A stretch of 37,397 bases of DNA from a bacterium (GCA_018675685.1 JABGXP010000006.1:1-37397), one strand, 5' to 3'; positions 2,219 through 33,865 are shown, counted from the first letter of the stretch. Notes: generated by a model from the sequence alone, not told the origin. Made by a program: numbers and translations.

Positions 2219-2247
2219 CTTGACGCAAGTTGTTTAAAGGAGTATAT
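2219..2247 (+). promoter_or_regulatory. Candidate promoter of the polysaccharide-synthase operon
   Basis: TTGACG (2219-2224), a 17-nt spacer and TATATT (2242-2247) stand just before the operon, giving a likely transcript start near 2254. The spacer also contains AAAGGAG, which would be the Shine-Dalgarno sequence of the tiny ORF at 2249. Both cannot be used from this promoter, because the ORF start would lie upstream of the transcript start. Confidence 0.5.
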
Positions 2248-2248
2248 T

Positions 2249-2332
2249 ATGAATATAGAAACAAAAGGACTTCTTTTGTTTTTATTTTTATTTAATTTGA
2301 TTAGATATTTGAAGATAATTATAAAAAAGTGA
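2249..2332 (+). CDS. Tiny membrane peptide or leader ORF (27 aa)
   Basis: ATG 2249 to TGA 2330-2332 encodes 27 residues: a short polar start (MNIETKG), a hydrophobic run (LLLFLFLFNLI) and a basic tail ending in KIIIKK. This is the look of a single-pass membrane micropeptide. AAAGGAG lies 6 nt before the ATG, one of the best ribosome sites in the neighbourhood. The stop is 7 nt before the ATG of the synthase gene, so it could couple translation into that gene. A promoter-like TTGACG/TATATT overlaps the same bases, which argues that the ORF may be only leader DNA. Chance is not excluded. Confidence 0.35.
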   Translation: MNIETKGLLLFLFLFNLIRYLKIIIKK

Positions 2333-2339
2333 AAAATAA

Positions 2340-3728
2340 ATGAATTCAAAACAGACATTATATAAAAGAAAGGACTTAAAAACTAAACATAAGTTAGTTG
2401 TTTATTTTATGGTGTCTGCCATTTTCCTTGTTTTGATTGGTAAATCATTTTTTGTAGAAAGTGATAATTTTTTACTTTATGCCTATGGCGTTTCTGTTAC
2501 ATTTGTTTTGTTAATAAACTTTTATGTAGCCATTTTTAAATATGAGGATCCTGCAGTATTGGCAAAATACATAGAAGAGACAGGTGCTAAAAGAGGGAGG
2601 TCACCCAAAAAACCTTTGGTTAGTTGTATAGTCGCAGTTTTCAATGAAGAAGAGGCAATAGAGCAGTGTATTTTGTCCTTAGTGAGGCAAAGTTACGATA
2701 ATAAGGAGATTATATTTGTGAATGATGGTAGTACTGATGGTACAGGGAAAGTTTTAGATGAATATGCTAAATTAGGAAAAATAAAAGTTATCCATCAAGA
2801 GAATGCTGGAAAAAAAAGAGCTCTTGGTAGGGCTATGAGGGAGGCTAAGGGTGAGATATTTGCTTTTTCGGATAGTGACTCTGTATGGGATCTTAATGCC
2901 ATCAGAAAAATAGTTAGAGTATTTAATGTTTTTCCTGACGTTGGTGGGGTAAGTGGACATTTTCGTTTGAAGAATTCCGGGGAAAATATATTGACAAAGG
3001 CGCAAGACTCTTGGGCAGAAGGTCAATTTGCCATAAGGAAGGCATTCGAGAGTTATTTCGGTTGCGTCTCTTGTGTATCTGGGCCCTTGGCTGTGTTTCG
3101 TAGGGAGGCTATTTTTAATTTCATTCCTGCCTGGGAACAAGACAGCTTCTTGGGGCAAGAATTTAAATTTGCAACAGATAGAACACTTACAGGATTTCTT
3201 TTAGGTAACCAATATGAAGGGGCAAGATTGAAGAAAAAGTATGCAAACGAAGACTGTGTTAAGGATATTGATTACCCAGAGAGAAACTGGCAAGTTGTTT
3301 ATTCAAAATCTGCTAAGTCTTGGACCATTTTACCTAATAATTTGAAGAGCTTAACAAAGCAACAAGTTCGTTGGAAAAAAAGTTTTATCAGGAACACTTT
3401 TTTTACAGGAAAATTTTATTGGAGAAAACCAATTTTACCAGCAATAGTTTATTATATGCACATATTGTTTGTTGTTATAGGACCTTTTATAGCATTTAGA
3501 CATATTATTTATTTGCCTATGAAGGGAGATGTTTGGTCAGCTTTTTTGTATATTGGTGGAATTATCTTCATTGGGCTAATGTTTGGGCTTGCTTATAAAC
3601 TAGAGAACAGAAATTGTCATCTTTGGGTCTATAGGCCAGTTATGAGTTTGCTGTCGACATTGTTTTTGTCTTGGTTGATATTTTATTCAGCTCTAACAAT
3701 TAAGAAAATGGTATGGCACAGAGGGTAA
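2340..3728 (+). CDS. Processive family-2 glycosyltransferase, hyaluronan/chitin-synthase-like (462 aa)
   Basis: A membrane polysaccharide synthase of the GT2 class. Two N-terminal membrane segments (about 19-35 and 44-65) are followed by the catalytic GT-A domain (about 93-350) and three or four C-terminal membrane segments (about 365-455). Catalytic hallmarks are visible: VSCIVAVFNEEE at 94-105, the donor-binding NDG at 128-130, the metal-binding DSD at 178-180, SGPLAVFRR at 248-256, the TDR around Asp280 and QQVRW (QxxRW) at 341-345. The QxxRW motif marks processive synthases such as hyaluronan, chitin, PNAG and cellulose synthases, which polymerise at the inner face and push the chain through the membrane. 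Overall shape and the TDRTLT motif are nearest to hyaluronan/NodC-type enzymes, so UDP-GlcNAc and perhaps UDP-uronate are likely donors (inference). It overlaps the next gene by 16 nt, implying translational coupling. Confidence 0.85.
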   Translation: MNSKQTLYKRKDLKTKHKLVVYFMVSAIFLVLIGKSFFVESDNFLLYAYGVSVTFVLLINFYVAIFKYEDPAVLAKYIEETGAKRGRSPKKPLVSCIVAVFNEEEAIEQCILSLVRQSYDNKEIIFVNDGSTDGTGKVLDEYAKLGKIKVIHQENAGKKRALGRAMREAKGEIFAFSDSDSVWDLNAIRKIVRVFNVFPDVGGVSGHFRLKNSGENILTKAQDSWAEGQFAIRKAFESYFGCVSCVSGPLAVFRREAIFNFIPAWEQDSFLGQEFKFATDRTLTGFLLGNQYEGARLKKKYANEDCVKDIDYPERNWQVVYSKSAKSWTILPNNLKSLTKQQVRWKKSFIRNTFFTGKFYWRKPILPAIVYYMHILFVVIGPFIAFRHIIYLPMKGDVWSAFLYIGGIIFIGLMFGLAYKLENRNCHLWVYRPVMSLLSTLFLSWLIFYSALTIKKMVWHRG

Positions 3729-6700
3729 AAAAGTACAGGAGAAGAGAATATTTTTTCTTTGGAGTAACCTTGCTCTTAGCTGTTTTTTTAATTAATAAGT
3801 ATATTGTTAGTAATATTAAGGATGAACTAATTATCTCTGCAAAAAAACAGATCAAAATAGTAGATAATCTAATTGATAATAAAATAGGTAATTGTGAGAA
3901 TGGTGAAGTTAAGTTATCGGTCGAGGGGGGATATGTGTGTAGGGATGAGTCTATACCTCATTCATTTTATAGGGAGATTTTTGATAAATATCCTATTTCA
4001 GGAAAAGGCAAAGAAATACCATATGAATTTTTAGACATTGGAGATTTGCAAGTTGCAAACCTTATGCTAGAAAGTGTCTATGACTTGAGTCGTTATGAGC
4101 CTATAAAAATAGAAGATATAGGTTGGGAGGAAGATCCATACGACGAAAGGTATTGGAGATTTTTGTTCTATAGTTTAAGGCCAACCAGGCATCTTATGTA
4201 TGCGTGGCTTGAGACAGGTAATGATGCCTACAAAGATAAATTAATAGAAGTTTTAGAAGGTTATACTAACAAGGGTCTTGCTAAAGAGAATACTTGGGAA
4301 GATTATCACGCAGTGTCTTTTAGGGCTATGGTGCTTGTGAATAGCTGGTGGAAATTGCGTGAGGGCAAGTCTCTGACTTATGAAATGAATGTTAAGATGT
4401 TGGATGCTATAAAGGAGCACGGTGATTTTTTGGTTAAGTCTAGTCATCACAAACCAGGCCACAATCACGGAGTGAATGAGGCTATGGCTCTTCTTACAAT
4501 TGCTGTAAATTTTCCTGATTTAGAGGGTTCTGACAAGTGGAGAGAGACTAGTGTTAAAAGACTTAGTGATAGTATAGATAATTTGATAGACAAAGATGGC
4601 GCTTTGATGGAAAATTCTCCCTATTATCATTTTTACGTGTTAGATAAATATTCTCAGATATATAATTATTCAAAATCTTATCAGGTTCACATTAAGGATG
4701 ATTTTGATGTGATTTTTGATAAAATGGTTAATTACGGTAAGTATATTTTAAAGCCAAATTTGGAAGTTCCAATGATAGGAGCTTCTCTTTATGACATTAA
4801 GAGCTCAAAGGGTGAATTAAGTAATATTGCTAAGGACAGTCCTGAATTACATTATGTTCTTACCAAGGGAGAATATGGTACAAGACCTGAAAAAAGGAAT
4901 GTTTTTTTTGAGGATACTGGTCAAACAATAATGAGGAGCGGTTGGGGAGAGGGTGAGGAATTTGAGAAACAGGCACACTTGATTTATAATATTGGTTCCT
5001 ATAGAACATTGCATAGCGATTATGATGCTTTGAGTTTCACTTTGTATTCGGGGGGCAAGAACATTTTAATTGACTCCGGGTTGTATTCTTATGAGAAAAG
5101 TGATTTAAACGAGTACTTTGATAGTACTAAAGCACATAATACAATTGTTGTGGATGGCAAGGATCAGTTACCAGGAATTGTAAATAAAGGTGATTTTATT
5201 GAGGGGGATGGTTTTGTTCAGCAGTCAGCTAGTCACAACCTTTATCCGGGAGTTACACATTTTCGAAGCATTTCTTTGCTTGGCAAAGAAGATGTTTTAG
5301 TTGTGGATAAAATAGTCTCTAAAGAGAAGCATACTTATAGTCAAATGTTTCATTTAGACCCTGATTTAAAAATCATTTTAAATAAAGGGATTGCTGATGT
5401 AGTAAGTGGAGAAGGTGAAGGGGTTGTGCAAATAAGACAATTAAATGATACAGCTGTAGCTTCTGAGGTAAAAAAAGCAGAAGGAGATCCTGTCGAAGGC
5501 TGGTGTTCTTATGAATATGAGAAGAAGGTTCCTTGTGAATCTTTAGCATTTAAGCAAGAAGGTGAGTCCGTTTTGTATATCACACTACTTCATATGGGAG
5601 AGTTTAAAGATAGTTATTTAGCTACTTACAATCAGAATTTGGAAACAGTTAACATTGATAATGAAGGAGGTTCTTACAGTATAAAAATAAAAACACCCAA
5701 TTCACTTGTTGACCCAGAAATTAAAAGGGTTAAGAAGCAAGTTGAATTGGAAAAAGAATCTTATACGTTAAAGTCCTTTGGTGAGGACAAAGGATGGAAA
5801 GTTCTTAATGAAAGAGGTGGTATAGAAGAGAAATATTTGGTGAAAAATGAGGATGGTAGAGTTGCGATTAATGGGTTGGATAATCATAGATACAGTATTG
5901 ATGTGCAGGGTGTAGATAAATATTATTCTACTTATGATAGAGTTGTAACCGATATTTCCTTTGAGGGTGAAGAGTTTAATGTTTATGAGCAAGAGGACTT
6001 TGTTCCAATATTGGGATATCATCACGTACTTAATGATGGTGATGACATCAAGCATCCAGAGTCTGAGATGCACAAAGAGGCTTTTTCTAAACAGATTGAT
6101 TATCTTACGAATGTATATGGATGTAGATGGTATACATTTGAGGAAATTATGAGAGATTATGTTTTATTGGAAAAAAAGACACCAAGGAAGGCCTGCGTGA
6201 TAAATTTTGATGATGGTAGGAGAAATAATTATGGAAATGCATACCCTATTTTAAAAGAGAATGATGTGACTGCTAGTTTTTATATCATTCCTAGTAAGCT
6301 AGAAATGTCAGGCTATATGACTTGGGAACAGATTAATGAAATATATTATGATGGTAATGAGATTGGCTCTCATACGATAGGTGGTGGCAGTCTAATGGCC
6401 TTTAAGGAGGATGATAATGAGTTAAAGAGACAGATTTTTGATTCGAAGAAAATTTTAAAGGATCATCAATATGGTGAAGTCAGCACTTTTGCTTATCCTC
6501 TTGGTGAATGGAATGAGAGCGTTGTTGAAAAAGTTAAGAGTGCTGGATATATCGCTGCTCGTGATACATCAAAAGATAATCACTGGAGAGATAGGCGTGC
6601 GCAGACGAGTAGTTTGGATGAAGAGTTTATTTGGCATATGTATTATTATAAGCCAGAATTGAATACCCCGGAAGAACTGGTTGATATTCTTGGATATAAT

Positions 6701-7321
6701 ACCTGGTGGCAGTTTGAGGAGGGATTTGAAGTTGTTTCTGATTTTGATGACGATATAAAAATTAGATCATCTATTGATCCAACAGAGACAAGTTACGCAG
6801 TGTTGTCATTAGCGGATTCTGGTGATGAAATTTTGAATAAATTTATCACAAGAGAAGATGCTGATTATATAATCGAAATAGTTGCTTCCAATGGAACGTC
6901 TGATGCTGGTGTGAGTGAAGGCCATTTCTTTAAAGTGGAGATTGATAAAATGGGATATGATTTTATTTTGGACAGTGATAGTTGCACTGTTTTTGATAAA
7001 AGATTTTACTGTAGTTATAAGGGGGCAGTGAACCTTAAAGAAGGCGCGCACATTATGAGTGTTGCTTCTTTGCAGAACAATTTAAAGATTGATAAATTTA
7101 GGCTTTATAGAGAGCTTGAAACAGAAAAAACTTACGAGATGGAAGTTGTTAGATATGGAAACACAAGAGAGGATAGTGCCTCGAAAGGTGAACAAATAAA
7201 TTTAAATGTTGATTTCAAACCTAATAAGTTAAAGTACGGAAAATATTTTTTAATTGGAAGTGTTTTACCTTTGATTTTTTCCTTGTATTTAGTATTAAAA
7301 AAGAGATATGCAAAAAAATAG
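3713..7321 (+). CDS. Membrane-anchored fusion: heparinase/alginate-lyase-like region plus polysaccharide deacetylase (1202 aa)
   Basis: A large exported enzyme with a membrane helix at each end (about 13-33 and 1177-1195). Residues about 90-380 form an alpha-helical toroid like that of alginate/heparin lyases, with NHGVNEAMALL at 251-261. Residues about 395-640 match the heparinase II/III C-terminal beta region: LHSDYDALSFTLYSGGKN at 433-450, then a DSGLYSY and an AHNTIVVDG signature near 474-482. Residues about 755-960 are a NodB-type deacetylase domain with NFDDG (831-835) and FAYPLG (926-931). Its second metal motif, however, reads SHTIGGG at 886-892, so the usual second His (expected at 891) is Gly. 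A beta-rich region (about 1010-1135) precedes the anchor. The lyase would cut uronate-containing chains by beta-elimination; the deacetylase would remove N-acetyl groups (family knowledge). It overlaps its neighbours by 16 and 14 nt. Confidence 0.8.
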   Translation: MAQRVKKYRRREYFFFGVTLLLAVFLINKYIVSNIKDELIISAKKQIKIVDNLIDNKIGNCENGEVKLSVEGGYVCRDESIPHSFYREIFDKYPISGKGKEIPYEFLDIGDLQVANLMLESVYDLSRYEPIKIEDIGWEEDPYDERYWRFLFYSLRPTRHLMYAWLETGNDAYKDKLIEVLEGYTNKGLAKENTWEDYHAVSFRAMVLVNSWWKLREGKSLTYEMNVKMLDAIKEHGDFLVKSSHHKPGHNHGVNEAMALLTIAVNFPDLEGSDKWRETSVKRLSDSIDNLIDKDGALMENSPYYHFYVLDKYSQIYNYSKSYQVHIKDDFDVIFDKMVNYGKYILKPNLEVPMIGASLYDIKSSKGELSNIAKDSPELHYVLTKGEYGTRPEKRNVFFEDTGQTIMRSGWGEGEEFEKQAHLIYNIGSYRTLHSDYDALSFTLYSGGKNILIDSGLYSYEKSDLNEYFDSTKAHNTIVVDGKDQLPGIVNKGDFIEGDGFVQQSASHNLYPGVTHFRSISLLGKEDVLVVDKIVSKEKHTYSQMFHLDPDLKIILNKGIADVVSGEGEGVVQIRQLNDTAVASEVKKAEGDPVEGWCSYEYEKKVPCESLAFKQEGESVLYITLLHMGEFKDSYLATYNQNLETVNIDNEGGSYSIKIKTPNSLVDPEIKRVKKQVELEKESYTLKSFGEDKGWKVLNERGGIEEKYLVKNEDGRVAINGLDNHRYSIDVQGVDKYYSTYDRVVTDISFEGEEFNVYEQEDFVPILGYHHVLNDGDDIKHPESEMHKEAFSKQIDYLTNVYGCRWYTFEEIMRDYVLLEKKTPRKACVINFDDGRRNNYGNAYPILKENDVTASFYIIPSKLEMSGYMTWEQINEIYYDGNEIGSHTIGGGSLMAFKEDDNELKRQIFDSKKILKDHQYGEVSTFAYPLGEWNESVVEKVKSAGYIAARDTSKDNHWRDRRAQTSSLDEEFIWHMYYYKPELNTPEELVDILGYNTWWQFEEGFEVVSDFDDDIKIRSSIDPTETSYAVLSLADSGDEILNKFITREDADYIIEIVASNGTSDAGVSEGHFFKVEIDKMGYDFILDSDSCTVFDKRFYCSYKGAVNLKEGAHIMSVASLQNNLKIDKFRLYRELETEKTYEMEVVRYGNTREDSASKGEQINLNVDFKPNKLKYGKYFLIGSVLPLIFSLYLVLKKRYAKK

Positions 7322-8216
7322 AATGTTTTTATTTTTAATACTTATTGCTTTAGGATTTTTTTCCTTTCATATCTTCATTAGCGATAGAGTGAATCGGGAA
7401 GAAGTAAAGGATTCAAAATTTGAATATAATAGAGAAATAGGGGTTGATTCAAGCGAAAAAGAGGTGAAATATTTAGAGGATAACTTTTCTTTGAGCTCAG
7501 TTTTGGAAGAGGAGGGAAGTATGCCTGATAGTAAGAGTCGGAATTGGTGGCTTAATTCTGGAGCTATGTTAACAATTAGCAATGGTACAGGGAAGACAAT
7601 CCACGGCGAATTGAAAAATGAAGACAGCTGGCGTCAGGAATATGAAGATTATAACTCTAGTGAAACCGACAAGGGCTACCACCCGCAAAATATATTTAGA
7701 CTAATAACCAAGTCTAAATGGTCTAGGTTTAATCAAGAGGCTTATTTCAAGATAAACAGGTATATCTTAAGTAAAGATAAGCACAGAAGTGCTTCTAATG
7801 GAATTTTGCTTTTTTGCAGATATAAAGACTCGGATAATCTTTATTATGCAGGTTTGCGTGTTGATGGTGCTGTAGTTGTAAAGAAGAAATATCAGGGAAC
7901 CTATTCTCAATTGGGGTATAAAAAGGTATTTGAAGGGAGTTATAACAGGTTCAACCAGCCAAATCTGTTACCAATCAACACTTGGTTGGGGGTTAGGGTG
8001 GAGATAGATGATATCTCGAAAGAAGAAATTTCTCTTAAGGTTTCTATTAAAAAAGAGAAAGGTAGTGATTGGGAGCAGGTCTTGAATGTGATTGATAGAG
8101 ATTCTGTCGAGAATAAATTAATAAAAGGAGAAGGGTTTGCAGGAATTAGGACGGATTTTATGGATGTAGAATTCGATAATTATAGAATTGAAGAAAAGAG
8201 GTATGGGTCACAATGA
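7308..8216 (+). CDS. Membrane-anchored lectin-like (concanavalin-A-fold) protein (302 aa)
   Basis: One N-terminal hydrophobic helix (about 5-25, FLFLILIALGFFSFHIF) anchors or exports the protein. A charged linker to about residue 80 and a beta-rich domain (about 85-298) follow. The tail of that domain has features seen in laminin-G/DUF1080-type jelly-roll proteins: ILLFCRYKDSDNLYYAGLRV, then a segment like NTWLGVRVEIDD, and a closing GEGFAGIRTDFMDVEFDN. Such folds bind or cleave glycans; I see no clear catalytic set, so binding is the safer guess. Its position inside a polysaccharide operon, overlapping the lyase/deacetylase by 14 nt and abutting the nucleotidyltransferase, suggests it holds or guides the nascent chain outside the membrane (inference). 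Confidence 0.6.
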   Translation: MQKNRMFLFLILIALGFFSFHIFISDRVNREEVKDSKFEYNREIGVDSSEKEVKYLEDNFSLSSVLEEEGSMPDSKSRNWWLNSGAMLTISNGTGKTIHGELKNEDSWRQEYEDYNSSETDKGYHPQNIFRLITKSKWSRFNQEAYFKINRYILSKDKHRSASNGILLFCRYKDSDNLYYAGLRVDGAVVVKKKYQGTYSQLGYKKVFEGSYNRFNQPNLLPINTWLGVRVEIDDISKEEISLKVSIKKEKGSDWEQVLNVIDRDSVENKLIKGEGFAGIRTDFMDVEFDNYRIEEKRYGSQ

Positions 8217-8217
8217 A

Positions 8218-8955
8218 ATGAATAGGGTTATAGTTTTGGCTGGTGGTAAGGGAAGTAGGATGAATATTTCTTTGCCCAAGGCTTTGGTAGAGGTTGCAGG
8301 AAGAATAATGATTGATAGGGTGATCGATGCTACGAGAAGTATTTGCGCGAAGCCTATCGTAGTAATTGGACACCAAGGCGAAGAAATAAAGCATCATCTG
8401 GGAGAGTCTGTCGAGTATGTTTGGCAGAAAAAACAACTGGGAACAGGACACGCAATCGAAAGTGCTAAAGATTTAAAGGATTGGGAGTTCTGCGATAATA
8501 TTGTTGTTGTTCCAGGTGATCATCCTTTAGTATCAAAAAAAACCATCAAGAATCTTATAGAGAAAAGGAACTATACTGATTCCAGTATAGTACTCGCTAC
8601 TGTCTCAGTTCCTAACTTCGAAGGTGAATATTCAAGTTTTTATAATTGTGGAAGGATTATAAGAAATCAAAACGGGGGAGTGGATTCAATTGTTGAATTG
8701 AAAGATGCTAATGAAAAAGAGCGCAGAATAAAAGAAGTTAATGTTAGTTTTTATTGTTTTAAATCTGATTGGCTTTGGCTGAATATAAGTGAATTAGGAA
8801 ATATGAATGCGTCAAAGGAATATTATATTACAGATCTTATTGAGTTGGCGAGAGAAGGAAATGATTTAGTTACAGCGATTAAATTGGATGATTTTAAGGA
8901 GGGTCTGGGTGTTAATACATTAGAACAAAAGGAGTTTATAGACAGTTTATTGTAG
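8218..8955 (+). CDS. GlmU-type sugar-nucleotide pyrophosphorylase, uridyltransferase domain only (245 aa)
   Basis: The product has the nucleotidyltransferase signature VIVLAGGKGSRM at 4-15 and the substrate loop SLPKALVEVAG at 18-28. It also has KQLGTGHAI at 72-80, typical of UDP-GlcNAc pyrophosphorylases, and PGDHPL at 99-104. Near the end are IVELKDA (158-164) and EYYITDLI (201-208). It lacks the left-handed beta-helix acetyltransferase half of GlmU. It would join UTP (or another NTP) and a sugar-1-phosphate, probably GlcNAc-1-P, in the cytoplasm and so feed the synthase of this operon (inference). I chose the ATG at 8218 because family members begin a few residues before the loop; ATG 8203 and TTG 8188 are alternatives that overlap the gene before. 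A long stem at 8955-9008 follows it. Confidence 0.75.
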   Translation: MNRVIVLAGGKGSRMNISLPKALVEVAGRIMIDRVIDATRSICAKPIVVIGHQGEEIKHHLGESVEYVWQKKQLGTGHAIESAKDLKDWEFCDNIVVVPGDHPLVSKKTIKNLIEKRNYTDSSIVLATVSVPNFEGEYSSFYNCGRIIRNQNGGVDSIVELKDANEKERRIKEVNVSFYCFKSDWLWLNISELGNMNASKEYYITDLIELAREGNDLVTAIKLDDFKEGLGVNTLEQKEFIDSLL

Positions 8956-9008
8956 ATAAAGCTATCTACAAAGACTTCTTATGGGAGTTTTTGTATAGTA
9001 GCTTTATC
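8955..9008. repeat. Long imperfect stem-loop between two operon genes
   Basis: GATAAAGCTA at 8955-8964 pairs with 8999-9008 (10/10), and TACAAA 8967-8972 pairs with TTTGTA 8990-8995. No T-run follows on either strand. A processing or stabilising mRNA hairpin that separates expression of the last operon gene is more likely than a terminator. Confidence 0.5.
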
Positions 9009-9041
9009 AACCAACCAATATTAGTCAAAGGGAGATTTTAA

Positions 9042-9824
9042 ATGCAGAAAGTGATTTTTTTCATTCCAGTGTTTAATGAAGCAGAAAGACTGGGCAGTGT
9101 TTTAAGCAGATTGCCCAAAAAGGTACTTGATTATGAAACAGAAATTGTCATTGTAGATGATTGCTCTTCTGATCATAGTGTTCAGATAGCCTCAGACTTT
9201 ACAAGGCACGTGGTAGTTTTGTCAGAAAATAGAGGTGTTGGAGTTGCAACGAAAGTCGGTTTCGAGTATATTGTCGATAATTTTAGTGACGGATATATAG
9301 TTAAGCTTGATGGTGATGGTCAGCACGAATTGAACTTTATACCAGAAATTGTTAGGAGATTGAAAGTTAACGACATAGTGGTTTGTTCAAGATTTCATCC
9401 ATCTTCAGATCAGACAAACACTCCTGTAGATAGAATCTTATTAAATATGATATTTACAGAGATGCTGAAGAAGATTACGGGATGGGATTTGACTGATGTG
9501 AGGAGTGGTTTTATGGGTTTAAGATTTGCTGGAGTTAAATCGATTGCCTCTAGTATGATTGTAGAGAGGTATGGAATTCCTATGGAAATTCTCTTGAGAC
9601 TATGGCATAACAATCCCTCAGCTGTTGTTTATGAAATACCTCACCCAGCTATTTACGGAGGAGATATCTCTAAAAAGCTTAGAAATAAGTATAGTTCTGA
9701 GAAAATAAACGATAAGAGCGATCGTTTGCAGGTTGCCTATTCCGCTTTATTAAAGGTGATTGAGAGTTTAAAGGTCCCGAGGGAAAGGATACTGAAAATA
9801 AATGGTTTTCGTATGGTTGCTTAG
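9042..9824 (+). CDS. Family-2 glycosyltransferase, dolichol-phosphate-mannose-synthase-like (260 aa)
   Basis: A soluble GT-A glycosyltransferase. The start, FFIPVFNEAERLGSVL (6-21), IVIVDDCSSDH (35-45), NRGVGVATKVGF (63-74) and KLDGDGQHE (88-96) are the classic landmarks of the DPM1/ArnC-like branch of GT2, with Asp90 and Asp92 placed for the metal-bound donor. No membrane helix is present, unlike many ArnC-type proteins. Such enzymes move one sugar onto a polyprenyl phosphate or start a glycan. The Shine-Dalgarno sequence AAAGGGAG precedes the ATG by about 7 nt. It ends the synthase operon, with a clean terminator at 9842-9878. It may instead act on another glycan, since it is separated from the core operon by 86 nt and a stem-loop. 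Confidence 0.8.
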   Translation: MQKVIFFIPVFNEAERLGSVLSRLPKKVLDYETEIVIVDDCSSDHSVQIASDFTRHVVVLSENRGVGVATKVGFEYIVDNFSDGYIVKLDGDGQHELNFIPEIVRRLKVNDIVVCSRFHPSSDQTNTPVDRILLNMIFTEMLKKITGWDLTDVRSGFMGLRFAGVKSIASSMIVERYGIPMEILLRLWHNNPSAVVYEIPHPAIYGGDISKKLRNKYSSEKINDKSDRLQVAYSALLKVIESLKVPRERILKINGFRMVA

Positions 9825-9841
9825 ATTGTGTAGGGAGGGGT

Positions 9842-9878
9842 AGAGTAAGGAATTAAAATATTCCTTACTCTTCTCTTT
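9842..9878 (+). terminator. Intrinsic terminator of the synthase operon
   Basis: AGAGTAAGGAAT (9842-9853) pairs with ATTCCTTACTCT (9860-9871), followed by TCTCTTT. Confidence 0.8.
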
Positions 9879-9909
9879 AGAATATTTTTAAGGTGTTAGT
9901 TTAAGATAT

Positions 9910-10026
9910 ATGTCAAAAGGGAAAACAAAAAAACGTGATATCAAAAAGAAAAAAAGGAAGCTTCGGAAAAAATTTGATAAAACAGAGAACAAAAGGACTA
10001 TTTGGGAAATACTAGTTTCTGAGTAA
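9910..10026 (+). CDS. Tiny very basic protein (38 aa), uncertain
   Basis: ATG 9910 to TAA 10024-10026 gives 38 residues. The first 28 are almost all Lys, Arg and polar residues (SKGKTKKRDIKKKKRKLRKK), then WEILVSE. The composition resembles small ribosome- or nucleic-acid-binding proteins, but no family is recognised and A-rich DNA encodes such runs by chance. AAGGTG lies about 18 nt before the ATG, too far for a normal ribosome site. It follows a terminator and stands alone, so it would need its own promoter, which I do not see. Confidence 0.3.
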   Translation: MSKGKTKKRDIKKKKRKLRKKFDKTENKRTIWEILVSE

Positions 10027-10319: not shown

Positions 10320-11210
10320 ATGAACCCTTGTTACCCACAGAAGTTAATAACAGAAGAGTCAAGTATAGAAGAGGAGTTTTTTAAAATTGGGAAACTTCTA
10401 GGCGATAAGAAAATATTGGTTTTGGAAATATTCAATCTGCTTCCAGAAGAAATCAAACGAGCAACTGTTCTCAGGGATCATCTTGCAAAGAGAATGCTTT
10501 ATGAATTTGGTAAGCCGTTGACGACGAGCTCATCAAGCTACCATTGTTTTGGTGGAAATCAAAATCTTGAGATTAAGAATTTATATTTGGCAATAAGAGC
10601 CGCTAAAAGTCGGTTAAATCCTTCAGATGCTGAAAAATTCATAAGAAGTATTAGTGATCCAAATAATCATCAAGATTTTCTTTTTGAAATGAGACCAGTT
10701 ATTTATTTAAAAAAGGGATTAAACCCAAAGTACGAAAGTGAAAGCAATTGTGCTCAAAATAAGAACGTAGACTGGGAAGTCGGAGGTGGTGAATATACTA
10801 TTTTATTAGAGGTTAAAAATAGAATTGGAAGTACAGCTGAACATCTGGAATACATTGACAAGATGCTATCTGAACTAAGTTCTGGGGTTGATCCTGAGAA
10901 TATTGCGCCCCCAGAAGCTCCAAACTCAGAAAAGCTATTTAAAAGCATAGAATATAAATTTAATAATCAAGAAAACACGAATGTTCTTCAAGGAGCGTGG
11001 ATCAACACGGGGATGAAAGAAGATAAAAAGAGCTTGCACTCTTGCTTTAAAGCTTTGGATAAAAGGAAAATCCAATTTGCTATCATTGCTGGATGGGGAA
11101 AAAGGGCTTATATTCTTTCAGTGAATGAGGCTTGCAAAAAAACCATTCTTGAATATTTTGACTTAATCGAGTCAAGTGACTTGATTTCTTTCGATGGTGC
11201 TAAGACTTAG
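10320..11210 (+). CDS. Hypothetical protein with a PD-(D/E)XK nuclease-like motif (296 aa)
   Basis: No named family is recognised. Residues about 148-170 carry a pattern typical of PD-(D/E)XK nucleases: Asp151 in VDWEV, a short beta turn (GGGEY), then ILLEVKNR with Glu164 and Lys166 in the E-x-K position. The N-terminal 130 residues look helical and the C-terminal part contains IQFAIIAGWGKRAYIL, a likely core strand. If active, it would cut or bind nucleic acid with Mg2+ (family knowledge). It is a single gene, preceded and followed by near-identical 26-nt elements, which fits a recently moved or cassette-like gene, or two genes under one shared control signal. The AAAGGAG near 10283 is about 30 nt too far upstream of the ATG; an in-frame stop just before ATG 10320 rules out a longer start. 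Confidence 0.6.
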   Translation: MNPCYPQKLITEESSIEEEFFKIGKLLGDKKILVLEIFNLLPEEIKRATVLRDHLAKRMLYEFGKPLTTSSSSYHCFGGNQNLEIKNLYLAIRAAKSRLNPSDAEKFIRSISDPNNHQDFLFEMRPVIYLKKGLNPKYESESNCAQNKNVDWEVGGGEYTILLEVKNRIGSTAEHLEYIDKMLSELSSGVDPENIAPPEAPNSEKLFKSIEYKFNNQENTNVLQGAWINTGMKEDKKSLHSCFKALDKRKIQFAIIAGWGKRAYILSVNEACKKTILEYFDLIESSDLISFDGAKT

Positions 11211-11254
11211 CAATAACTGGTCAGTGCAAATCTTGTTTCCCATAAAGAATCTTC

Positions 11255-11280
11255 GAACATCGTTCAATATGTCCCGCATA
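11255..11280 (+). repeat. 26-nt direct repeat, copy B
   Basis: It differs from the copy at 10216-10241 only at 11264 and 11267. It directly abuts the terminator at 11281-11312. As in copy A, its ATG (11269) opens a short frame starting MSRI, here 20 codons running through the terminator hairpin. Confidence 0.75.
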
Positions 11281-11312
11281 AAAAAACAATATTCTTTGGA
11301 ATATTGTTTTTT
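11281..11312 (+). terminator. Intrinsic terminator after the PD-(D/E)XK-like gene
   Basis: A 14-bp stem (11281-11294 with 11299-11312) has the loop TTTG and ends in T6. AAAGAAT near 11244 can pair with ATTCTTT inside the hairpin, a possible antiterminator. Confidence 0.8.
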
Positions 11313-11353
11313 GTTTGAAAAAAGTTTTTAAGGTGCTTAAATGTGTTTTGACA

Positions 11354-11382
11354 TTGATGATTTGTGAGAATAATGGTATAGT
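11354..11382 (+). promoter_or_regulatory. Promoter of the 259-aa gene
   Basis: TTGATG (11354-11359), a 17-nt spacer and an extended -10, TGG-TATAGT (TATAGT 11377-11382). A TTGACA lies at 11348-11353 but is spaced 23 nt from that -10. Confidence 0.6.
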
Positions 11383-11448
11383 AACAAGTTACTAAAAGGA
11401 GTTTTTTGAAAAAGAAAGATAAACCTATAAATTTAGGGGAGACTAAAG

Positions 11449-12228
11449 ATGGAAACGAAGACCAAGGAGAAGTCCAAGGCGCTTTACAAACCAACTGAAC
11501 TATTGCCCATGGGTCAGAAGATCTATGATTTTTGTCAGGAGTTCCCGATGGTAGCTTTCAATGCCCCTGCTGAGCATCAAGAAGAATTCAGAGAGAAGTT
11601 TGCCGAAGAGATAGCAGACACGGAACTTGATCACAGCAGGTATCTGCAAATGAGTGGTGGTTTTTTCTATGGAAACAAGCCAATAAATGATTTTCTCGAA
11701 AAAATCGAAGAAGGCACTTTTCTGTTGCTCTCTATAATGGGTAGAAAAGATCTTGTGACTGTTGTGGCTAACGTAGGAGCTTTTTATTCTGACAATGACA
11801 TCCCGAAGAGCTGTCGGGTAGATTTTCACAAAACCAGAGGATTCAAGAAACATATTGGTGGAGTTCATGTTTGGTCAGGCCATATTCTGGCTGTGGCTGT
11901 CGCGGATGGTCTTCAAAAAGAAATGTCTATCTTAGATCCAGATGCTGAGATTTTCCTTGCGAAGGCCAGGAAATACGCTGTTAAGCCTGAGCGATACTAC
12001 CAGTTAAATTTTCGGATTGAAGTAGCTGCGGCCGATTATTGTTTTAAAACCTTAAAGGGTGGAAAATTCACTGATAATCAAATTTTTCGGGTTGTGGAAG
12101 TTCGGGGCAAAAAAGTAATTTGTCCCGGAACGGAAGCTGAAATCTATCCAGGGTTGCTTATTGACCATCACTCTTTGGAAGCTCTGTCTAAACAAGGAGA
12201 GGTTATCTATCAAAAAAGAAGGCCATGA
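11449..12228 (+). CDS. Hypothetical soluble protein (259 aa)
   Basis: I do not recognise this protein. It has no signal peptide or membrane segment. The N-terminus is charged and helical (first 60 residues, several E/K pairs), followed by a mixed alpha/beta core. Segments likely to be conserved are MSGGFFYGN (about 68-76), HIGGVHVWSGHILAVAVADG (about 136-155) and the C-terminal beta-rich region with VVEVRGKKVICPG. The gene is transcribed alone from the promoter at 11354-11382 and closed by a perfect 38-nt palindromic terminator at 12251-12288. A Shine-Dalgarno sequence, GGGGAG, lies about 8 nt before the ATG. GC content and codon choice are richer than in the flanking hypothetical genes, suggesting a well-expressed housekeeping or conserved function (inference). 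Confidence 0.75.
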   Translation: METKTKEKSKALYKPTELLPMGQKIYDFCQEFPMVAFNAPAEHQEEFREKFAEEIADTELDHSRYLQMSGGFFYGNKPINDFLEKIEEGTFLLLSIMGRKDLVTVVANVGAFYSDNDIPKSCRVDFHKTRGFKKHIGGVHVWSGHILAVAVADGLQKEMSILDPDAEIFLAKARKYAVKPERYYQLNFRIEVAAADYCFKTLKGGKFTDNQIFRVVEVRGKKVICPGTEAEIYPGLLIDHHSLEALSKQGEVIYQKRRP

Positions 12229-27266: not shown

Positions 27267-28223
27267 ATGCAGATGAAAGTTCTGATAACAGGAGGCGCTG
27301 GTTTTATTGGAAGCGCAGTTGCAAGGAAGTTAATTGATCGAGGAGATAAAGTTGTCATGATCGACAACTTTAATGATTATTATGATCCCAAGTTAAAAAG
27401 AGATAGAATTGCAACGATCTTAAAAGATTGTGAATATTCTTTGCACGAAGGTAATATTCAAGATCTGGAATTTTGCCAAGCAGTTTTTGCGAAAGAGAAA
27501 ATTGACAAGGTGATTCATCTAGCAGCGATGGCTGGTGTGCGAAGCTCGCTTGAAGACCCTTTGTTATATGAAGAGGTAAATGTGCGGGGAACAAACGTTT
27601 TACTTGAAATGGCCGTGAAATACAAAATCAAGAACTTTGTGTATGCCTCCTCATCGTCTGTCTATGGAAACAATAAGAAAGTGCCATTTTCAGAAGAAGA
27701 TAGAGTCGACACACCAATGTCGCCATATGCAGCCACAAAACGAGCAACAGAACTTATTGCTCACACTTACAGTCATATCCACGGACTAAAAACCACGGGA
27801 CTTCGATTTTTCACGGTCTATGGACCTTGGGGAAGACCGGATATGGCGCTGTTTTTGTTTACAGACAAGATCACAAAAGATGAGGAAATTAGTGTCTATA
27901 ATTTTGGAAAAATGAGCCGAAACTTCACCTATATTGATGATATCGTGTCTGGGACGATCACCACGCTTGATGCTGACTTGGAGTGCGAAATCATGAACAT
28001 TGGTGGTGACAAAGAAGAAACACTTTTGCGTTTTATCGAAGTGATTGAGGAAAATATCGGCAAAAAAGCAAAGAAAAATATGATGCCAATCCAACCAGGA
28101 GATGTGCCTTCAACGGTGGCAGATATTTCCAAATTGCGAGCATTGGGATGGGAACCAACAACCAGAATCGAAGAAGGGATCAAGAACTTCATTGATTGGT
28201 ATAAGGAGTATTATAAAAAATAA
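27267..28223 (+). CDS. NAD-dependent sugar-nucleotide epimerase, UDP-glucuronate 4-epimerase-like (318 aa)
   Basis: A short-chain dehydrogenase-fold epimerase acting on a nucleotide sugar. The NAD loop GGAGFIGS is at 9-16, the catalytic set is SSSSVYG near 128-134 and YAATK (Tyr-x3-Lys) near 151-155, and the substrate part RFFTVYGPWGRPDMAL points to the UDP-GlcA 4-epimerase branch, which makes UDP-galacturonate. DNFNDYYDPKLKRDR near the start is also typical of that branch. The ATG at 27273 is as likely as 27267. It is probably cotranscribed with the small gene before it and lies just upstream of the glycan-export operon, to which it can supply a uronic-acid donor. dTDP-glucose dehydratase is a less likely alternative. 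Confidence 0.85.
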   Translation: MQMKVLITGGAGFIGSAVARKLIDRGDKVVMIDNFNDYYDPKLKRDRIATILKDCEYSLHEGNIQDLEFCQAVFAKEKIDKVIHLAAMAGVRSSLEDPLLYEEVNVRGTNVLLEMAVKYKIKNFVYASSSSVYGNNKKVPFSEEDRVDTPMSPYAATKRATELIAHTYSHIHGLKTTGLRFFTVYGPWGRPDMALFLFTDKITKDEEISVYNFGKMSRNFTYIDDIVSGTITTLDADLECEIMNIGGDKEETLLRFIEVIEENIGKKAKKNMMPIQPGDVPSTVADISKLRALGWEPTTRIEEGIKNFIDWYKEYYKK

Positions 28224-28267
28224 ATATATGGAATCAAGATAAGATTCACGCATAGTTTATTTTGAGA

Positions 28268-28296
28268 TTGATAAAGAGATTGTGATAAGGTATTAT
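28268..28296 (+). promoter_or_regulatory. Promoter of the glycan-export operon
   Basis: TTGATA (28268-28273), a 17-nt spacer and TATTAT (28291-28296), about 100 nt before the first gene. Confidence 0.6.
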
Positions 28297-28397
28297 ATAT
28301 GCATAATGTGGTAGTATCAATACTGAATAAAGGATAAATTTCAAGTATTTCAATTGATATTGGTAGAAACATAAATTATGGAATATAAAAACAGTTA

Positions 28398-29567
28398 ATG
28401 AAGATTCTAATAATCGCTGCAACTCCTTATTTTTCAAATAGAGGTTGTCATATTCGTATATTTTTAGGTGCAAAATATCTTCAAAAAAAAGGAGTTGATG
28501 TTTTGCTATGTACATATCATCTAGGTGAGAATGTTGGGGATTTCCCAATTAAAACCAATGGGCATACCTCTTGGTATAAAAAAACCTCTCCTGGTTTTGC
28601 CTGGGGCAAGCTTTGGTTGGATGTCAAGTTGCTATGGTTGTGTATAAGAGAGATTAGACGATTTAAACCAGATGCAATTCACGCGCATCTTTTTGAGGGG
28701 CTGGCTATTGGCTATCTAGCGAAGATATTTGCAGGAAAATTTGGAATTCCAATTGTGATTGATTCTCAGGGTGATATTGAGGCTGAATTTAATGCATACA
28801 ATAAGAAAAATAAGTTTGCAAAAAAAGTTTTTGTCCCGTTAGCCAAAAGAATCATCAGATTGGCTGACTATATTGTGCTGAGTAGTGAAAATGCGCTGCC
28901 ATTTTTTGAGAAGATTGCTAAATTGAAGAACAAAATTTCTGTGATCAAGGATGGTGTTGGAATTGAATTTTTCAAAGAAAGTGGACAAGAAAAGTTATCA
29001 GAAAGTGTGATTTTGGAACTTGAACAAGTTGGAGAATGGAAAAAAAATGGTAAATTACTTATCTACACCGGAGGGATGGAGGATAGTAAAGGCGTTGAAA
29101 GTTTATTAAAAGAATTTCTGGTGATTAAGGATGAACTAAGAGATTGGAAACTGCTTTTATATGGGGTTGGTAGCGATCGAAAGGCATATAGAAGATTGAT
29201 TGAAGAATATCATGCTAGTGAGCAAGTTCGATTTACAAAAGAGACCAGTTTTTTCGTGCTATCGAACTTTTTGAAAATAGCCGATGTCGCTATTGACCCA
29301 AAAGAAGAGAGCACCGAGGGTAGTGGGAAATTAATGAATTATATGGCAGTTGGTCTGCCGATAGTTTGTTTCGAGAATAACTTTAATAAGCAAAAACTTG
29401 GCTCTAAAGGTTTTTATTTACAAAAAATGTCTGATTTGGGGAATAGCTTAAGACAAGATTTTCCAGAAAAAATTTCATATAACCTTCAAGACGAAATTGA
29501 AAAGGGAGAAATTGAAAAGTTATTTAATATCTTTACTAAATTAATTGAGAAAAGAAAACATAGATGA
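28398..29567 (+). CDS. GT4-type glycosyltransferase (GT-B fold) (389 aa)
   Basis: A retaining glycosyltransferase that adds a sugar from a nucleotide donor to a growing glycan in the cytoplasm. The N-terminal domain opens with ILIIAATPYFSNRGCHIR, a common GT4 acceptor-domain start, and includes a DAIHAHLFEGLAIGYL segment. The C-terminal donor domain has KLLIYTGGMEDSKGVESLL (beginning about 214) and IDPKEESTEGSGKLMNYMAVG (about 300-320), the E-x7-E-like region that holds the donor phosphates. No membrane helix. Donor and acceptor are unknown. Its last four bases (ATGA) overlap the start of the next gene. Confidence 0.8.
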   Translation: MKILIIAATPYFSNRGCHIRIFLGAKYLQKKGVDVLLCTYHLGENVGDFPIKTNGHTSWYKKTSPGFAWGKLWLDVKLLWLCIREIRRFKPDAIHAHLFEGLAIGYLAKIFAGKFGIPIVIDSQGDIEAEFNAYNKKNKFAKKVFVPLAKRIIRLADYIVLSSENALPFFEKIAKLKNKISVIKDGVGIEFFKESGQEKLSESVILELEQVGEWKKNGKLLIYTGGMEDSKGVESLLKEFLVIKDELRDWKLLLYGVGSDRKAYRRLIEEYHASEQVRFTKETSFFVLSNFLKIADVAIDPKEESTEGSGKLMNYMAVGLPIVCFENNFNKQKLGSKGFYLQKMSDLGNSLRQDFPEKISYNLQDEIEKGEIEKLFNIFTKLIEKRKHR

Positions 29568-30751
29568 AATTATTCCTAATTAAAATTGGTAAGGCATTTT
29601 GCACCATTAGAAGAGATGGTTTTTTTCGAGGTGGGAAAAGAGTGGCGACTTCATTTTTTGCTCTTTTTGGAAAAGTTGGCAAGGGTGATATTTTAATTGT
29701 TACTGGTGGTGTCGGTGATAGCGCGCGTTATAGAGCACATCATGTAGCAGAGGAATTGCGAATCCAGGGTTTCAAAGTTTCTGTTACAGTGCAGGACAAT
29801 CCCTTCTTGGTGAGCTACGTTTCAAAATTCAGTGTTTTTATCTTTCATCGCACTTTATTCACAAAATCAATTGCTAAGTTGACCAAGCAAATCAAAAAAC
29901 AACAAAAAGAGCTTATTTTTGAAACTGACGATTTGGTCTATGATCCAAAATTTTTGAAATTTATGGATTATTATCAAAAAATGAATTCCCTAGAGAAAAA
30001 ACTTTATGAAAATGGAGTCGGTGGTGAAATTATTAGGGACGACTATGTAAAAGTTTGTACTACTACTACGACTTTTTTAGCAAATAAGCTAGAGAAAGAA
30101 GGAAAAAAAGTTTTTATTGTAAAAAATAAACTTTCCAAGGAGGATGTGGAGTGGTCCAAAGAAATTTTAAAGAAACAGAGCAATAGAAAAGTTGATGAAA
30201 TTGTGATAGGATATTTCAGTGGAACAATTAGCCATAATAAAGACTTTGCAACAATCACGAAAGCATTGACTGAGGTCTTTAAAAAACATCCACAAGTGAA
30301 ATTGCTATTAGTTGGTCCACTTGATTTGGACCATAGCTTAGTGAAAAGTTTTGGTGATAGGATTATAAGTACACCATATGTTCCAAGAAAGAAACATTTT
30401 GAAAATATTGCCAAAGTTGATATTAATATTTCTCCTTTAGAAAAAGATAATCCTTTTTGTGAAGGAAAAAGCGAGTTGAAATTTTTTGAAGCAGGCATCT
30501 TGAAGATTCCAACAGTGGCAACAGCAACTCAAACTTTCTGTGAAGCGATTGAAGACGGAATCGATGGATTTGTGGCCCATGATACTAAAGAATGGATAGA
30601 GAAGCTTGAGAAGCTTATTCTTGATAAGAAGGAGAGGCAAATGATAGGTCAAAAAGCTTTCGAAAAAACTCTGAAGAATTACTGTACAGAAAATGCCAAG
30701 AATGATGAATATTATCAATATTTAAAAAACAAAATTAACGAAGTGGAATGA
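29564..30751 (+). CDS. GT4-like glycosyltransferase (395 aa)
   Basis: A second GT-B glycosyltransferase. The N-terminal part starts with a basic tail, then ILIVTGGVGDSARYRAHHVA, a pattern seen in GT4-like enzymes whose acceptor domain is poorly conserved; FETDDLVYDP (about 125-134) is another marker. The donor domain begins near 215 (IVIGYFSGTISHNKDF), continues with VKLLLVGPLDLD, and ends with CEGKSELKFFEAGILKIPTVA (about 303-323), the donor-phosphate site. It is coupled by 4-nt ATGA overlaps to the genes on both sides, so the pair and the exporter are made together. Sugar specificity is unknown. Confidence 0.75.
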   Translation: MKLFLIKIGKAFCTIRRDGFFRGGKRVATSFFALFGKVGKGDILIVTGGVGDSARYRAHHVAEELRIQGFKVSVTVQDNPFLVSYVSKFSVFIFHRTLFTKSIAKLTKQIKKQQKELIFETDDLVYDPKFLKFMDYYQKMNSLEKKLYENGVGGEIIRDDYVKVCTTTTTFLANKLEKEGKKVFIVKNKLSKEDVEWSKEILKKQSNRKVDEIVIGYFSGTISHNKDFATITKALTEVFKKHPQVKLLLVGPLDLDHSLVKSFGDRIISTPYVPRKKHFENIAKVDINISPLEKDNPFCEGKSELKFFEAGILKIPTVATATQTFCEAIEDGIDGFVAHDTKEWIEKLEKLILDKKERQMIGQKAFEKTLKNYCTENAKNDEYYQYLKNKINEVE

Positions 30752-31530
30752 GAATGGAAAAATCGCATGAAAACTACAAGGAATTGATTTGGATGTTAGT
30801 AAAAACTGATTTCAAGCTACGATATCAAGGTTCTTTTCTGGGCTATATTTGGGCAATATTAAGTCCACTTTTGACATTTGCTGTTTTAAACTTTGTTTTC
30901 TCTTCAGTGTTTGCTCGAGGAAATGGAGCTGAGTATTATCCCCTTCAACTTCTAATAGGGATAATGACATTCACCTTTTTTTCTGATGGAACAAGAGCTG
31001 GCCTAGGATCCTTGGTCGCTAAATCTAGACTTGTGACAAAAATTTATGTGCCAAGATGGGTATTAATTTTTGCTTCAACGATGAATACTGGGATGCTTTT
31101 TCTTATGAATCTTATTGTTTTGGTAATATTCTTTATTTTTTATAGATTTCTACCTAGTTTGGAAGCCATATTATTTTTTGTCCTTTTGGTTGTGTTAATG
31201 TATGTAGTAATATTAGGCTTCTCTTTTCTTACAGCAGCTTTCTATGTTAGATTTAGAGATCTTTCTATGATTTGGGCGGTTATCGTTAGGGCACTTTTTT
31301 ATGCTACACCAATTATTTATCCAATTCAGGTAATGCCTGAGTATATTCAGAAAGTTATACTACTTAGTCCTATTGGATTTATTGTTCATTTCTCTAAAGA
31401 GTCCTTAATTAATAACCATTTTCCAGAGATATGGCAGTTTATGTTATTTGTAGTTGCGAGCTTTGCCTTTCTCTTTATTGGGATCTTTATTCACAAAAAA
31501 ACAATAAAAAAAATTGCTGAAAACATTTAA
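30748..31530 (+). CDS. wzm: ABC-2 polysaccharide exporter, permease subunit, Wzm-like (260 aa)
   Basis: The membrane half of an ABC transporter that exports lipid-linked glycans. A cytoplasmic N-terminal stretch (KELIWMLVKTDFKLRYQ), typical of the family's amphipathic gate helix, precedes six membrane segments (about 28-50, 62-80, 108-132, 140-168, 178-198, 230-252). FLGYIWAILSPLL near 28-40 is the classic Wzm signature of the first segment, and SPIGFIVHFSKESL near 208-221 the last loop. The ATP-binding partner follows 5 nt after its stop. In this route the glycan is built in full on undecaprenyl-PP before export (family knowledge). Confidence 0.85.
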   Translation: MRMEKSHENYKELIWMLVKTDFKLRYQGSFLGYIWAILSPLLTFAVLNFVFSSVFARGNGAEYYPLQLLIGIMTFTFFSDGTRAGLGSLVAKSRLVTKIYVPRWVLIFASTMNTGMLFLMNLIVLVIFFIFYRFLPSLEAILFFVLLVVLMYVVILGFSFLTAAFYVRFRDLSMIWAVIVRALFYATPIIYPIQVMPEYIQKVILLSPIGFIVHFSKESLINNHFPEIWQFMLFVVASFAFLFIGIFIHKKTIKKIAENI

Positions 31531-31535
31531 ATATC

Positions 31536-32792: not shown

Positions 32793-32802
32793 ATAAACAT
32801 TA

Positions 32803-33837
32803 ATGAGAAAAATTTTTTATAAAATACCAAAACTCGGTAAGATTGTTAAACAGAGAGATTCTGCTTTGAATATGATTAAGGATTTGGAGTTAAGAGAAAG
32901 AAGATTGCTAGAAAATAAAGAAAAGATGAATTGCTTTAAAGATATTTTTTTGTCTCCCTGGACCGATAAATGGAAGATCTTTTATGTAAACAAAAACAAC
33001 GAGATAGATAAATATATCAGTCAATTAAAATCTGGATTAGACAAAGAGAGTAAGTTAGTTGTAGATAATCTTTGGGAAAAGATAATCTTTTTAATTCCGT
33101 ACAATAAACATAAAAAATCTTTTTTATATAAAGTGGAAGATTTTTTTACAAAAAAAGAATTAATTGAACAGAAAAAAAATATTGATTTGTCAAGGTATAA
33201 TATTCCGAATGGAGTAAATATAGAAAAGCCAGTTTTTTTAAATAAAAATGGTTTGGCTTTTCTACCAAAAAGAATTTTATTAAAAATAAAAGGTAAAATA
33301 ATAGTAGATGGCGGAGCGTATTTTGGTGATTCAGCACTTGTTTTTTTAGAATACACCCCATCTCGTGTATATTCTTTTGAGCCTGTCAATTTGACTTATA
33401 AAAAACTAAAAGAAACTATAAGAATTAATAAAATGGGAGATATTGTTACTCCTATTAAACTAGGTCTTGGAAAAAAAGCAGGGAAAGCCTTTATTAAAGG
33501 AACAAATAGTGCCGCATCGTTGACTACTTCTGATTTTAAAAATGCTCAAGAGATTAGTATTACTAGTATCGATGATTTTTTCTCTGGAAAAAATGATGTT
33601 ATAGGTTTAATAAAGTTAGATGTTGAAGGGGAGGAGCTTGGAGTTATAAAAGGTGCACTTGAGACAATAAAAAGAGATAAGCCCATATTGCTTATTTCTG
33701 TATATCATAGACCAGAGGATTTTTTCTTTATAAAACCATTAATAGATGATTTGAATTTAGGATATAAATTTATGATTAGAAAGACTTCATCTTTCAGAGT
33801 TACTTCTGAAACGGTTCTTATAGGTTATTCAGGCTAA
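32803..33837 (+). CDS. FkbM-family SAM-dependent methyltransferase (344 aa)
   Basis: Residues about 165-344 form a class I methyltransferase of the FkbM type: VDGGAYFGDSALVF (about 167-180, SAM-binding Gly loop), VYSFEPVNLTYKKL (about 188-201), and IKLDVEGEELGVIKGA (about 268-283), the family's strongest marker. The first 160 residues are a charged helical region (starting KIPKLGKIVKQRDSALNMIK) that may dock on another subunit. FkbM enzymes O-methylate sugars or natural products. Here, next to a Wzt with a cap-binding domain and upstream of the four-domain protein, terminal methylation of the glycan is a reasonable role (inference). Confidence 0.8.
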   Translation: MRKIFYKIPKLGKIVKQRDSALNMIKDLELRERRLLENKEKMNCFKDIFLSPWTDKWKIFYVNKNNEIDKYISQLKSGLDKESKLVVDNLWEKIIFLIPYNKHKKSFLYKVEDFFTKKELIEQKKNIDLSRYNIPNGVNIEKPVFLNKNGLAFLPKRILLKIKGKIIVDGGAYFGDSALVFLEYTPSRVYSFEPVNLTYKKLKETIRINKMGDIVTPIKLGLGKKAGKAFIKGTNSAASLTTSDFKNAQEISITSIDDFFSGKNDVIGLIKLDVEGEELGVIKGALETIKRDKPILLISVYHRPEDFFFIKPLIDDLNLGYKFMIRKTSSFRVTSETVLIGYSG

Positions 33838-33865
33838 GGGTGCGTGTTAGAGGTAATACAACTAA

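Follow-up and report, generated by a model that had tools for sequence, protein, structure and literature searches.

A predicted synthase-dependent system for an acidic surface polysaccharide, with a lyase/CE4-like fusion protein, in a small bacterial genome

Introduction

What polymer would be made by an operon that places a processive GT2 glycosyltransferase next to a single protein carrying both a heparinase-type lyase and a NodB-like domain, and how does such an operon relate to the known polysaccharide systems? The question is raised by one locus in a bacterial DNA stretch of 37,397 nucleotides (the whole of which is called the window here), from a 1.05-Mb genome that is 96% complete. A preliminary description had labelled the cell 'CPR-type', which its small size and gene content make plausible; the cell is that of a tiny, probably parasitic bacterium.

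A five-gene operon

The operon spans positions 2340-9824, and all five open reading frames were found where the preliminary description, covering 2219-9878, had placed them:

2340..3728, + strand: processive GT2 polysaccharide synthase (Pfam GT2, 1.9e-32; HAS/NodC-type motifs; tree)
3713..7321, + strand: membrane-anchored lyase/CE4-like fusion of 1202 aa (Pfam, PDB matches, alignments, model)
7308..8216, + strand: membrane-anchored ConA-like (CBM66-like) protein, probably polymer-binding (model; position of homologues behind GT2-CE4 genes in many loci)
8188..8955, + strand: GlmU-type UTP:HexNAc-1-P uridylyltransferase, this domain only (likely start, ATG 8218)
9042..9824, + strand: DPM1/PpgS-like GT2, probable polyprenyl-phosphate glycosyltransferase (Pfam, NCBIfam, synteny)

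The synthase and fusion genes overlap by 16 nt, and the fusion and anchored-protein genes by 14 nt. The nucleotidyltransferase more likely begins at ATG 8218, abutting the stop codon at 8216. Pfam profiles identified both halves of the heparinase-type lyase (Hepar_II_III_N, 3.6e-20; Hepar_II_III_C, 4.8e-31) and a deacetylase-like domain (Polysacc_deac_1, 7.5e-21) in the fusion, an NTP transferase at 8188-8955 and a second GT2 at 9042-9824 (2.2e-22); 7308-8216 had no significant Pfam match. The five-gene observation was thus borne out in its reading frames, coordinates, overlaps and domain profiles, and the proposed union of lyase and NodB-like domains on one protein is real, both families being recovered by profile search and by fold. 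A protein scan of genome contigs returned a single locus.

Conservation of gene order

The lyase was found in six loci: the window, the bacterial loci L055 (genome G399), L056 (G418), L041 (G222) and L042 (G175), and L040 in the archaeal metagenome-assembled genome JAIORZ010000011.1; together they represent five bacterial families and one archaeal assembly. A QxxRW-type GT2 lies directly upstream of the lyase-CE4 gene in 6/6, and the CE4 domain follows the lyase within the same protein in every one (assigned by alignment in L056). A ConA-like protein comes after the fusion in the window and L040 (Laminin_G_3) and, judged from weak alignment alone, also in L042 and L056; in L041 the ConA-like domain is fused to the C-terminus of the fusion protein, and no ConA-like gene was found downstream in L055. 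L041 also continues with a nucleotidyltransferase and a DPM1-like gene in the order of the window, the latter a 47% homologue of our last GT2 at the same position.

The stop codon of the GT2 and the next start overlap by exactly 16 nt in the window, L040, L041, L043, L053 and L095, whatever the middle gene, which is modular and encodes lyase plus CE4, CE4 alone, or lyase, CE4 and lectin. Synthases of the same clade are paired with a CE4 protein and no lyase in G381 and G434, and with a more distant CE4 in G401; more distant GT2s are accompanied by CE4 and one or two ConA-like genes in G413, G402, G424 and G411. A chance arrangement was ruled out, since the association is found again where the proteins are 38-72% identical, and six loci share the same 16-nt overlap; a sequencing artefact was ruled out likewise, as the reading frames are intact and the same fusion occurs in independent genomes. 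The expectation that relatives would share the gene order thus held.

Three loci deserve separate mention. In G384, from the family of the window, an operon remnant (L096, G384:C1:28000-47999, at 8650-9980) has lost the middle genes: the GT2 is truncated after ~258 residues, and 0.1 kb away only the final 128 residues of a DPM1-like protein remain (73% identity). In L046 (G413) and L047 (G402), the ConA-like genes are tandemly duplicated after the GT2-CE4 pair.

A synthase with its own clade

The synthase carries SDSDS (residues 177-181), SGPL (247-250), FLG..ATDRTLT (270-284) and QQVRW (341-345), with membrane segments at the N- and C-terminus. These correspond to the motif set of class I hyaluronan synthases (HAS), namely DxD, SGPL, FLG..(D)DRxLT and QxxRW, a set that is common to NodC and hence not specific. 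The FLG..(D)DRxLT motif is shared by the synthase, HAS, NodC (there FRG) and a Lactococcus GT2 encoded beside a sugar dehydrogenase, and it is absent from E. coli PgaC; in the clade of the window's enzyme the first Asp of GDDR is replaced by Thr (ATDR). PDB matches include Chlorella-virus and vertebrate hyaluronan synthases, identity to the viral enzyme being only 23%.

In the GT2 tree, the synthase and six relatives form a seven-member clade of their own (100/100 support), which does not cluster with HAS and stands apart from the HAS/NodC/Lactococcus group, on long branches whose deep order is unsure. PgaC/IcaA and NodC rank top among the named NCBIfam families, but the PgaC/IcaA-type cut-off was missed (134 bits against 422) and the motif also differs. 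The earlier description of the enzyme as hyaluronan-synthase-like stands on the presence of FLG...DRxLT and QxxRW, the former absent from PgaC. As judged from sequence, 'HAS-like' is a fair term for the probable mechanism, and the specificity could also be NodC-like; membership of the HAS family was a candidate only, and was rejected because the 100/100 clade lies outside the HAS group.

A heparinase-type lyase with an intact catalytic set

From N- to C-terminus, the fusion comprises a transmembrane segment, the lyase (~98-660), a linker, the CE4-like domain (~755-960), a C-terminal beta domain and a transmembrane helix; membrane helices are predicted at both ends of the model, which at pLDDT 65 was used for domain assignment only and not for metal-site geometry. 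Its best PDB match by Foldseek is HepC (6.7e-25; PL12-like), and the lyase domain aligns with heparinase III over 480 residues. Both profiles and the toroid plus beta-sandwich fold of the heparinase II/III-like superfamily are present.

The catalytic residues of HepC are Asn240, Tyr294 and His424, and the related lyases tabulated with it all act on uronic acid polymers (PMC12088678). N251, Y305 and H434 of the fusion align with these three, and Asn/Tyr/His is kept in 6/6 lyase homologues. The protein is therefore like heparinase III/HepC (PL12) in fold and catalytic set; unlike HepC, it is membrane-anchored, fused and located in a synthesis operon. Identity as a HepC heparan-sulfate lyase was rejected, the NCBIfam equivalog cut-off having been missed by a wide margin (110.6 bits against 700).

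A CE4-like domain that lacks a metal ligand

The CE4 fold and the Polysacc_deac_1 profile are present, and the model matches PplD, IcaB and PgaB. D833 and D834 represent the Asp of motif 1 and H887 the first His of motif 2, with a further His at 975. In the alignment with PplD, however, G891 stands opposite the His of 'HTVNH', so that the second metal His is missing and the Asp-His-His metal triad of CE4 (NodB) N-deacetylases is incomplete (D834, H887, G891). The same His is absent in 5/5 members of this CE4 subtype (the window, L053, L040, L043 and L095), whereas H-x-x-x-H is kept in the CE4 domains fused to the same lyase type in L041, L042 and L056.

Mutation of either metal His of PelA abolished its esterase activity (PMC12022489). 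Because of this precedent and the replacement of the second metal His, de-N-acetylation by the window's domain is doubtful, barring an unusual site; it is likely in the sister systems whose CE4 is intact. The preliminary proposal that the chain is trimmed and deacetylated as it leaves is accordingly favoured in its first part by the intact Asn/Tyr/His of the lyase and weakened in its second by the CE4 subtype.

The His-less subtype, encoded at 5933-7318 in the window, has 64 invariant columns in five sequences, for example QED, GYH, FAYPxGExN, WHMxY and WWQ, and is possibly a site of new chemistry or a binding domain.

The downstream genes

The ConA-like protein was modelled with a pLDDT of 84.8, and its best PDB match is a CBM66 (E 5.6e-8). 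The anchored family to which it belongs is absent from Pfam and NCBIfam and occurs in 9/57 relatives. Its conserved residues (W81, R171, Y179, R184, K192-194, W226, R281) are basic or aromatic, as would be expected for binding to an acidic chain.

The nucleotidyltransferase is 38% identical to the N-domain of E. coli GlmU and scores 204 bits to the GlmU family of NCBIfam, over the N-terminal domain only and below the equivalog cut-off; it ends at 255 aa, and the GlmU C-terminal acetyltransferase domain is absent. The genome has five PF00483 genes; judged by inspecting them, this enzyme may be the only GlmU-type one of the cell, and it may therefore serve beyond the operon. For the last GT2, the nearest NCBIfam families are PpgS-type polyprenyl-phosphate glycosyltransferases, with scores far below the equivalog cut-offs.

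Sugar dehydrogenases and uronic acid

In G175 only 3 nt separate an NDP-sugar dehydrogenase gene from the GT2 downstream of it, and in the archaeon 20 nt; G222 encodes one on the same strand at a distance of about 3.7 kb upstream, accompanied by an epimerase and a transposase. The operon of the window contains no dehydrogenase and none lies near that of G418, while the lyase-less or eroded GT2 loci (G381, G434, G401 and G384) have none in the operon (0/4). The numbers are small, and in G399 the contig breaks off just 5' of the GT2. Elsewhere, the window's genome encodes one TuaD-type UDP-glucose dehydrogenase and one HexNAc-type dehydrogenase. As PF03721 exceeds its cut-off in 128/131 genomes of the order, its mere presence is uninformative, and gene adjacency alone was used as evidence.

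With a dehydrogenase, a source of uronic acid, adjoining the GT2 in two loci and near it in a third, it is a well-supported prediction that the polymer is acidic. The adjacent enzymes disagree on the sugar: those of G175 and the archaeon lean towards UDP-HexNAc (312 and 289 bits to the ManNAc model; 144 and 151 to TuaD), and that of G222 towards UDP-glucose (250 bits to AglM against 107). Since the HAS and NodC motifs are shared as well, the glycosaminoglycan-like chain of amino sugar and uronic acid proposed earlier gains support for the uronic acid, from the dehydrogenases of three lyase loci and the intact lyase triad, and its disaccharide is a candidate only.

A Cytobacillus plasmid locus (L097) with a dehydrogenase, glycosyltransferases and an alginate-lyase-like gene was considered as a parallel system and rejected, the glycosyltransferase adjacent to its dehydrogenase being unrelated (19 bits).

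Patchy distribution and lateral transfer

A search of about 508 distinct genomes within the phylum found the lyase in 5 and a close GT2 in 8. The fusion occurs in 1/137 of the archaeal genomes around L040 (0/136 of the others). Archaeal 16S and 23S rRNA are encoded in that genome on another contig than the operon, and mis-binning of the copy, which lies on a 396-kb contig, is unlikely. The window's lyase is 43-45% identical to that of the archaeon and 39% to that of G399, a genome of the same order, whereas the GT2s of the window and G399 are 71% identical. With a lyase no less similar to the archaeal copy than to that of a same-order genome, and with so patchy a distribution, the sequences point to lateral transfer and domain swapping.

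Proposed function

The domains, the intact lyase triad, the synteny, the dehydrogenase linkage and the missing metal His are best explained by a synthase-dependent system for an acidic (hexuronate-containing) surface polysaccharide, with the lyase cutting the nascent chain (probability about 0.62); the identity of the polymer and the direction of action are our interpretation. By its HAS/NodC-type motifs, the GT2 would polymerise NDP-sugars and extrude the chain by a membrane channel of its own. On the outer side, the anchored fusion would cleave the nascent chain by beta-elimination beside uronic acid residues, which could set chain length, release the chain or clear misdirected chains. The window's CE4-like domain might bind the chain or modify acetyl groups by a non-canonical site, and in sister systems an intact CE4 would probably de-N-acetylate. 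The GlmU-type enzyme would supply UDP-HexNAc. We also infer that the ConA-like protein might tether the polymer to the cell and that the DPM1-like enzyme might provide lipid-linked sugar for decoration. The lyase appears dispensable to the synthase, as GT2 loci exist without it (G381, G434, G401) or are eroded (G384).

A more specific picture is tentative: minute, episymbiont-type cells would make a glycosaminoglycan-like polymer, so far undescribed, with N-acetylhexosaminuronic acid in place of ordinary glucuronic acid; the elimination lyase would be borne in the synthase operon, and lateral transfer would have occurred between bacteria of this group and small archaea.

The same genes could instead make a chitin- or PNAG-like GlcNAc homopolymer that CE4 deacetylates, the lyase acting on environmental or host acidic polysaccharide or being a structural relic. 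The rank of PgaC/IcaA and NodC at the top of the synthase profiles, the GlmU-type nucleotidyltransferase and the lyase-free GT2-CE4 pairs (G381, G434, G401) would suit this, but we consider it unlikely: the lyase triad is kept in all six proteins, a dehydrogenase lies in the cluster of three lyase loci and of none of the four lyase-less or eroded ones, all five members of the CE4 subtype lack the metal ligand, and the FLG/DR motif is unlike PgaC.

Another reading is scavenging or attack. Small-genome symbionts are in general expected to scavenge, and an anchored fusion, with predicted helices at both ends and a lyase akin to enzymes that degrade heparan and other glycosaminoglycans, might break down acidic polysaccharides on host or neighbour cells for food or attachment, its link to the GT2 being co-regulation of surface genes only. 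This is improbable given a GT2-fusion order and a 16-nt overlap conserved across families and in an archaeon, and a dehydrogenase in the operon of relatives, which indicates synthesis and not degradation; no importer or unsaturated-uronyl hydrolase was noticed beside the fusion. Least probable of all is that the lyase only clears membrane-stuck chains without shaping the polymer, for which AlgL (PMC8829089) is a precedent and the relatives with a synthase but no lyase would speak, since fusion to CE4, and sometimes to a ConA-like domain, suggests action on the path of the mature chain. Cells of this group, moreover, are expected to lack an outer membrane, so that there would be no periplasm for chains to clog.

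Relation to known systems

Set against known machineries, the acidic-polysaccharide system resembles several and coincides with none of those compared. In the PNAG system, PgaB fuses a CE4 deacetylase to a GH153 hydrolase and is encoded in the operon of the PgaC synthase (PMC5933820). There as here, a GT2 operon encodes an extracytoplasmic enzyme that fuses CE4 with a depolymerase; here, however, the depolymerase is a heparinase-type lyase in N-terminal position, the CE4 metal His is missing and the GT2 has the FLG..DR motif of HAS and NodC, unlike PgaC. The PgaB-type CE4+GH153 profile matched in its CE4 part only, a lyase standing in place of GH153, and neither PgaA nor PgaD was seen here. 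Membership of the PNAG (Pga/Ica) systems was rejected because the synthase falls below the cut-off, its motif differs and GH153 is absent.

PelA fuses an endo-GalNAc hydrolase to a CE21 deacetylase (PMC12022489). It shares with the fusion an N-terminal depolymerase and a C-terminal CE domain in one protein, but its depolymerase is a hydrolase and its D-H-H metal triad is kept. The Pel synthase is, to our knowledge, not a GT2 of this type. In the alginate operon, a GT2 synthase (Alg8) is encoded with the elimination lyase AlgL (PMC8829089), a combination found here too, although AlgL is a separate protein without CE4 fusion; no other alginate genes were seen here. The single GT2 with FLG..DRxLT and QxxRW, and the dehydrogenase directly upstream in two relatives, recall HasA-HasB and HAS, from which the separate clade and the low identity to the viral enzyme set it apart. 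We know of no HAS operon with a lyase/CE4 fusion. AlgL belongs to a different lyase family, PL5.

The preliminary description had called the system unusual and possibly undescribed. Its gene combination was not found in the CPR/Patescibacteria literature searched, which lay mostly outside subscription journals, but the fused layout is of a kind known from PgaB and PelA. The locus is best read as a rare, modular and laterally mobile synthase-dependent polysaccharide machinery, in which an elimination lyase appears to replace the hydrolase of PgaB and PelA. A 2020 survey lists five synthase-dependent exopolysaccharides: cellulose, acetylated cellulose, PNAG, alginate and Pel (PMC7112194). The present system is not among them and would extend the list by a machinery in which a lyase occupies the place taken by a hydrolase in others. 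For minute bacteria that can hardly be cultivated, it offers a concrete hypothesis on surface chemistry that can be put to the test, and its patchy, modular distribution, one archaeon included, suggests an exchange of surface polymers in cassette form. As tools, the lyase and synthase could be used to produce and cleave defined acidic polymers.

Additional observations

In L095 (G434), positions 4417-7302 encode a PMT-like membrane domain fused to a GH8 domain, directly upstream of the GT2 and CE4 genes; an alternative depolymerase of this sort fits the idea that a depolymerase of some kind belongs to the system. Just 3' of the operon in the window, 10320-12228 encodes two proteins (296 and 259 aa) without Pfam match. 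A second surface-polysaccharide cluster occupies 27267-37018, with an NAD-dependent epimerase, two GT1-type glycosyltransferases, an ABC-2 permease, a Wzt-like ATPase, an FkbM methyltransferase and a 1050-aa protein that combines several GT2 stretches with a methyltransferase domain.
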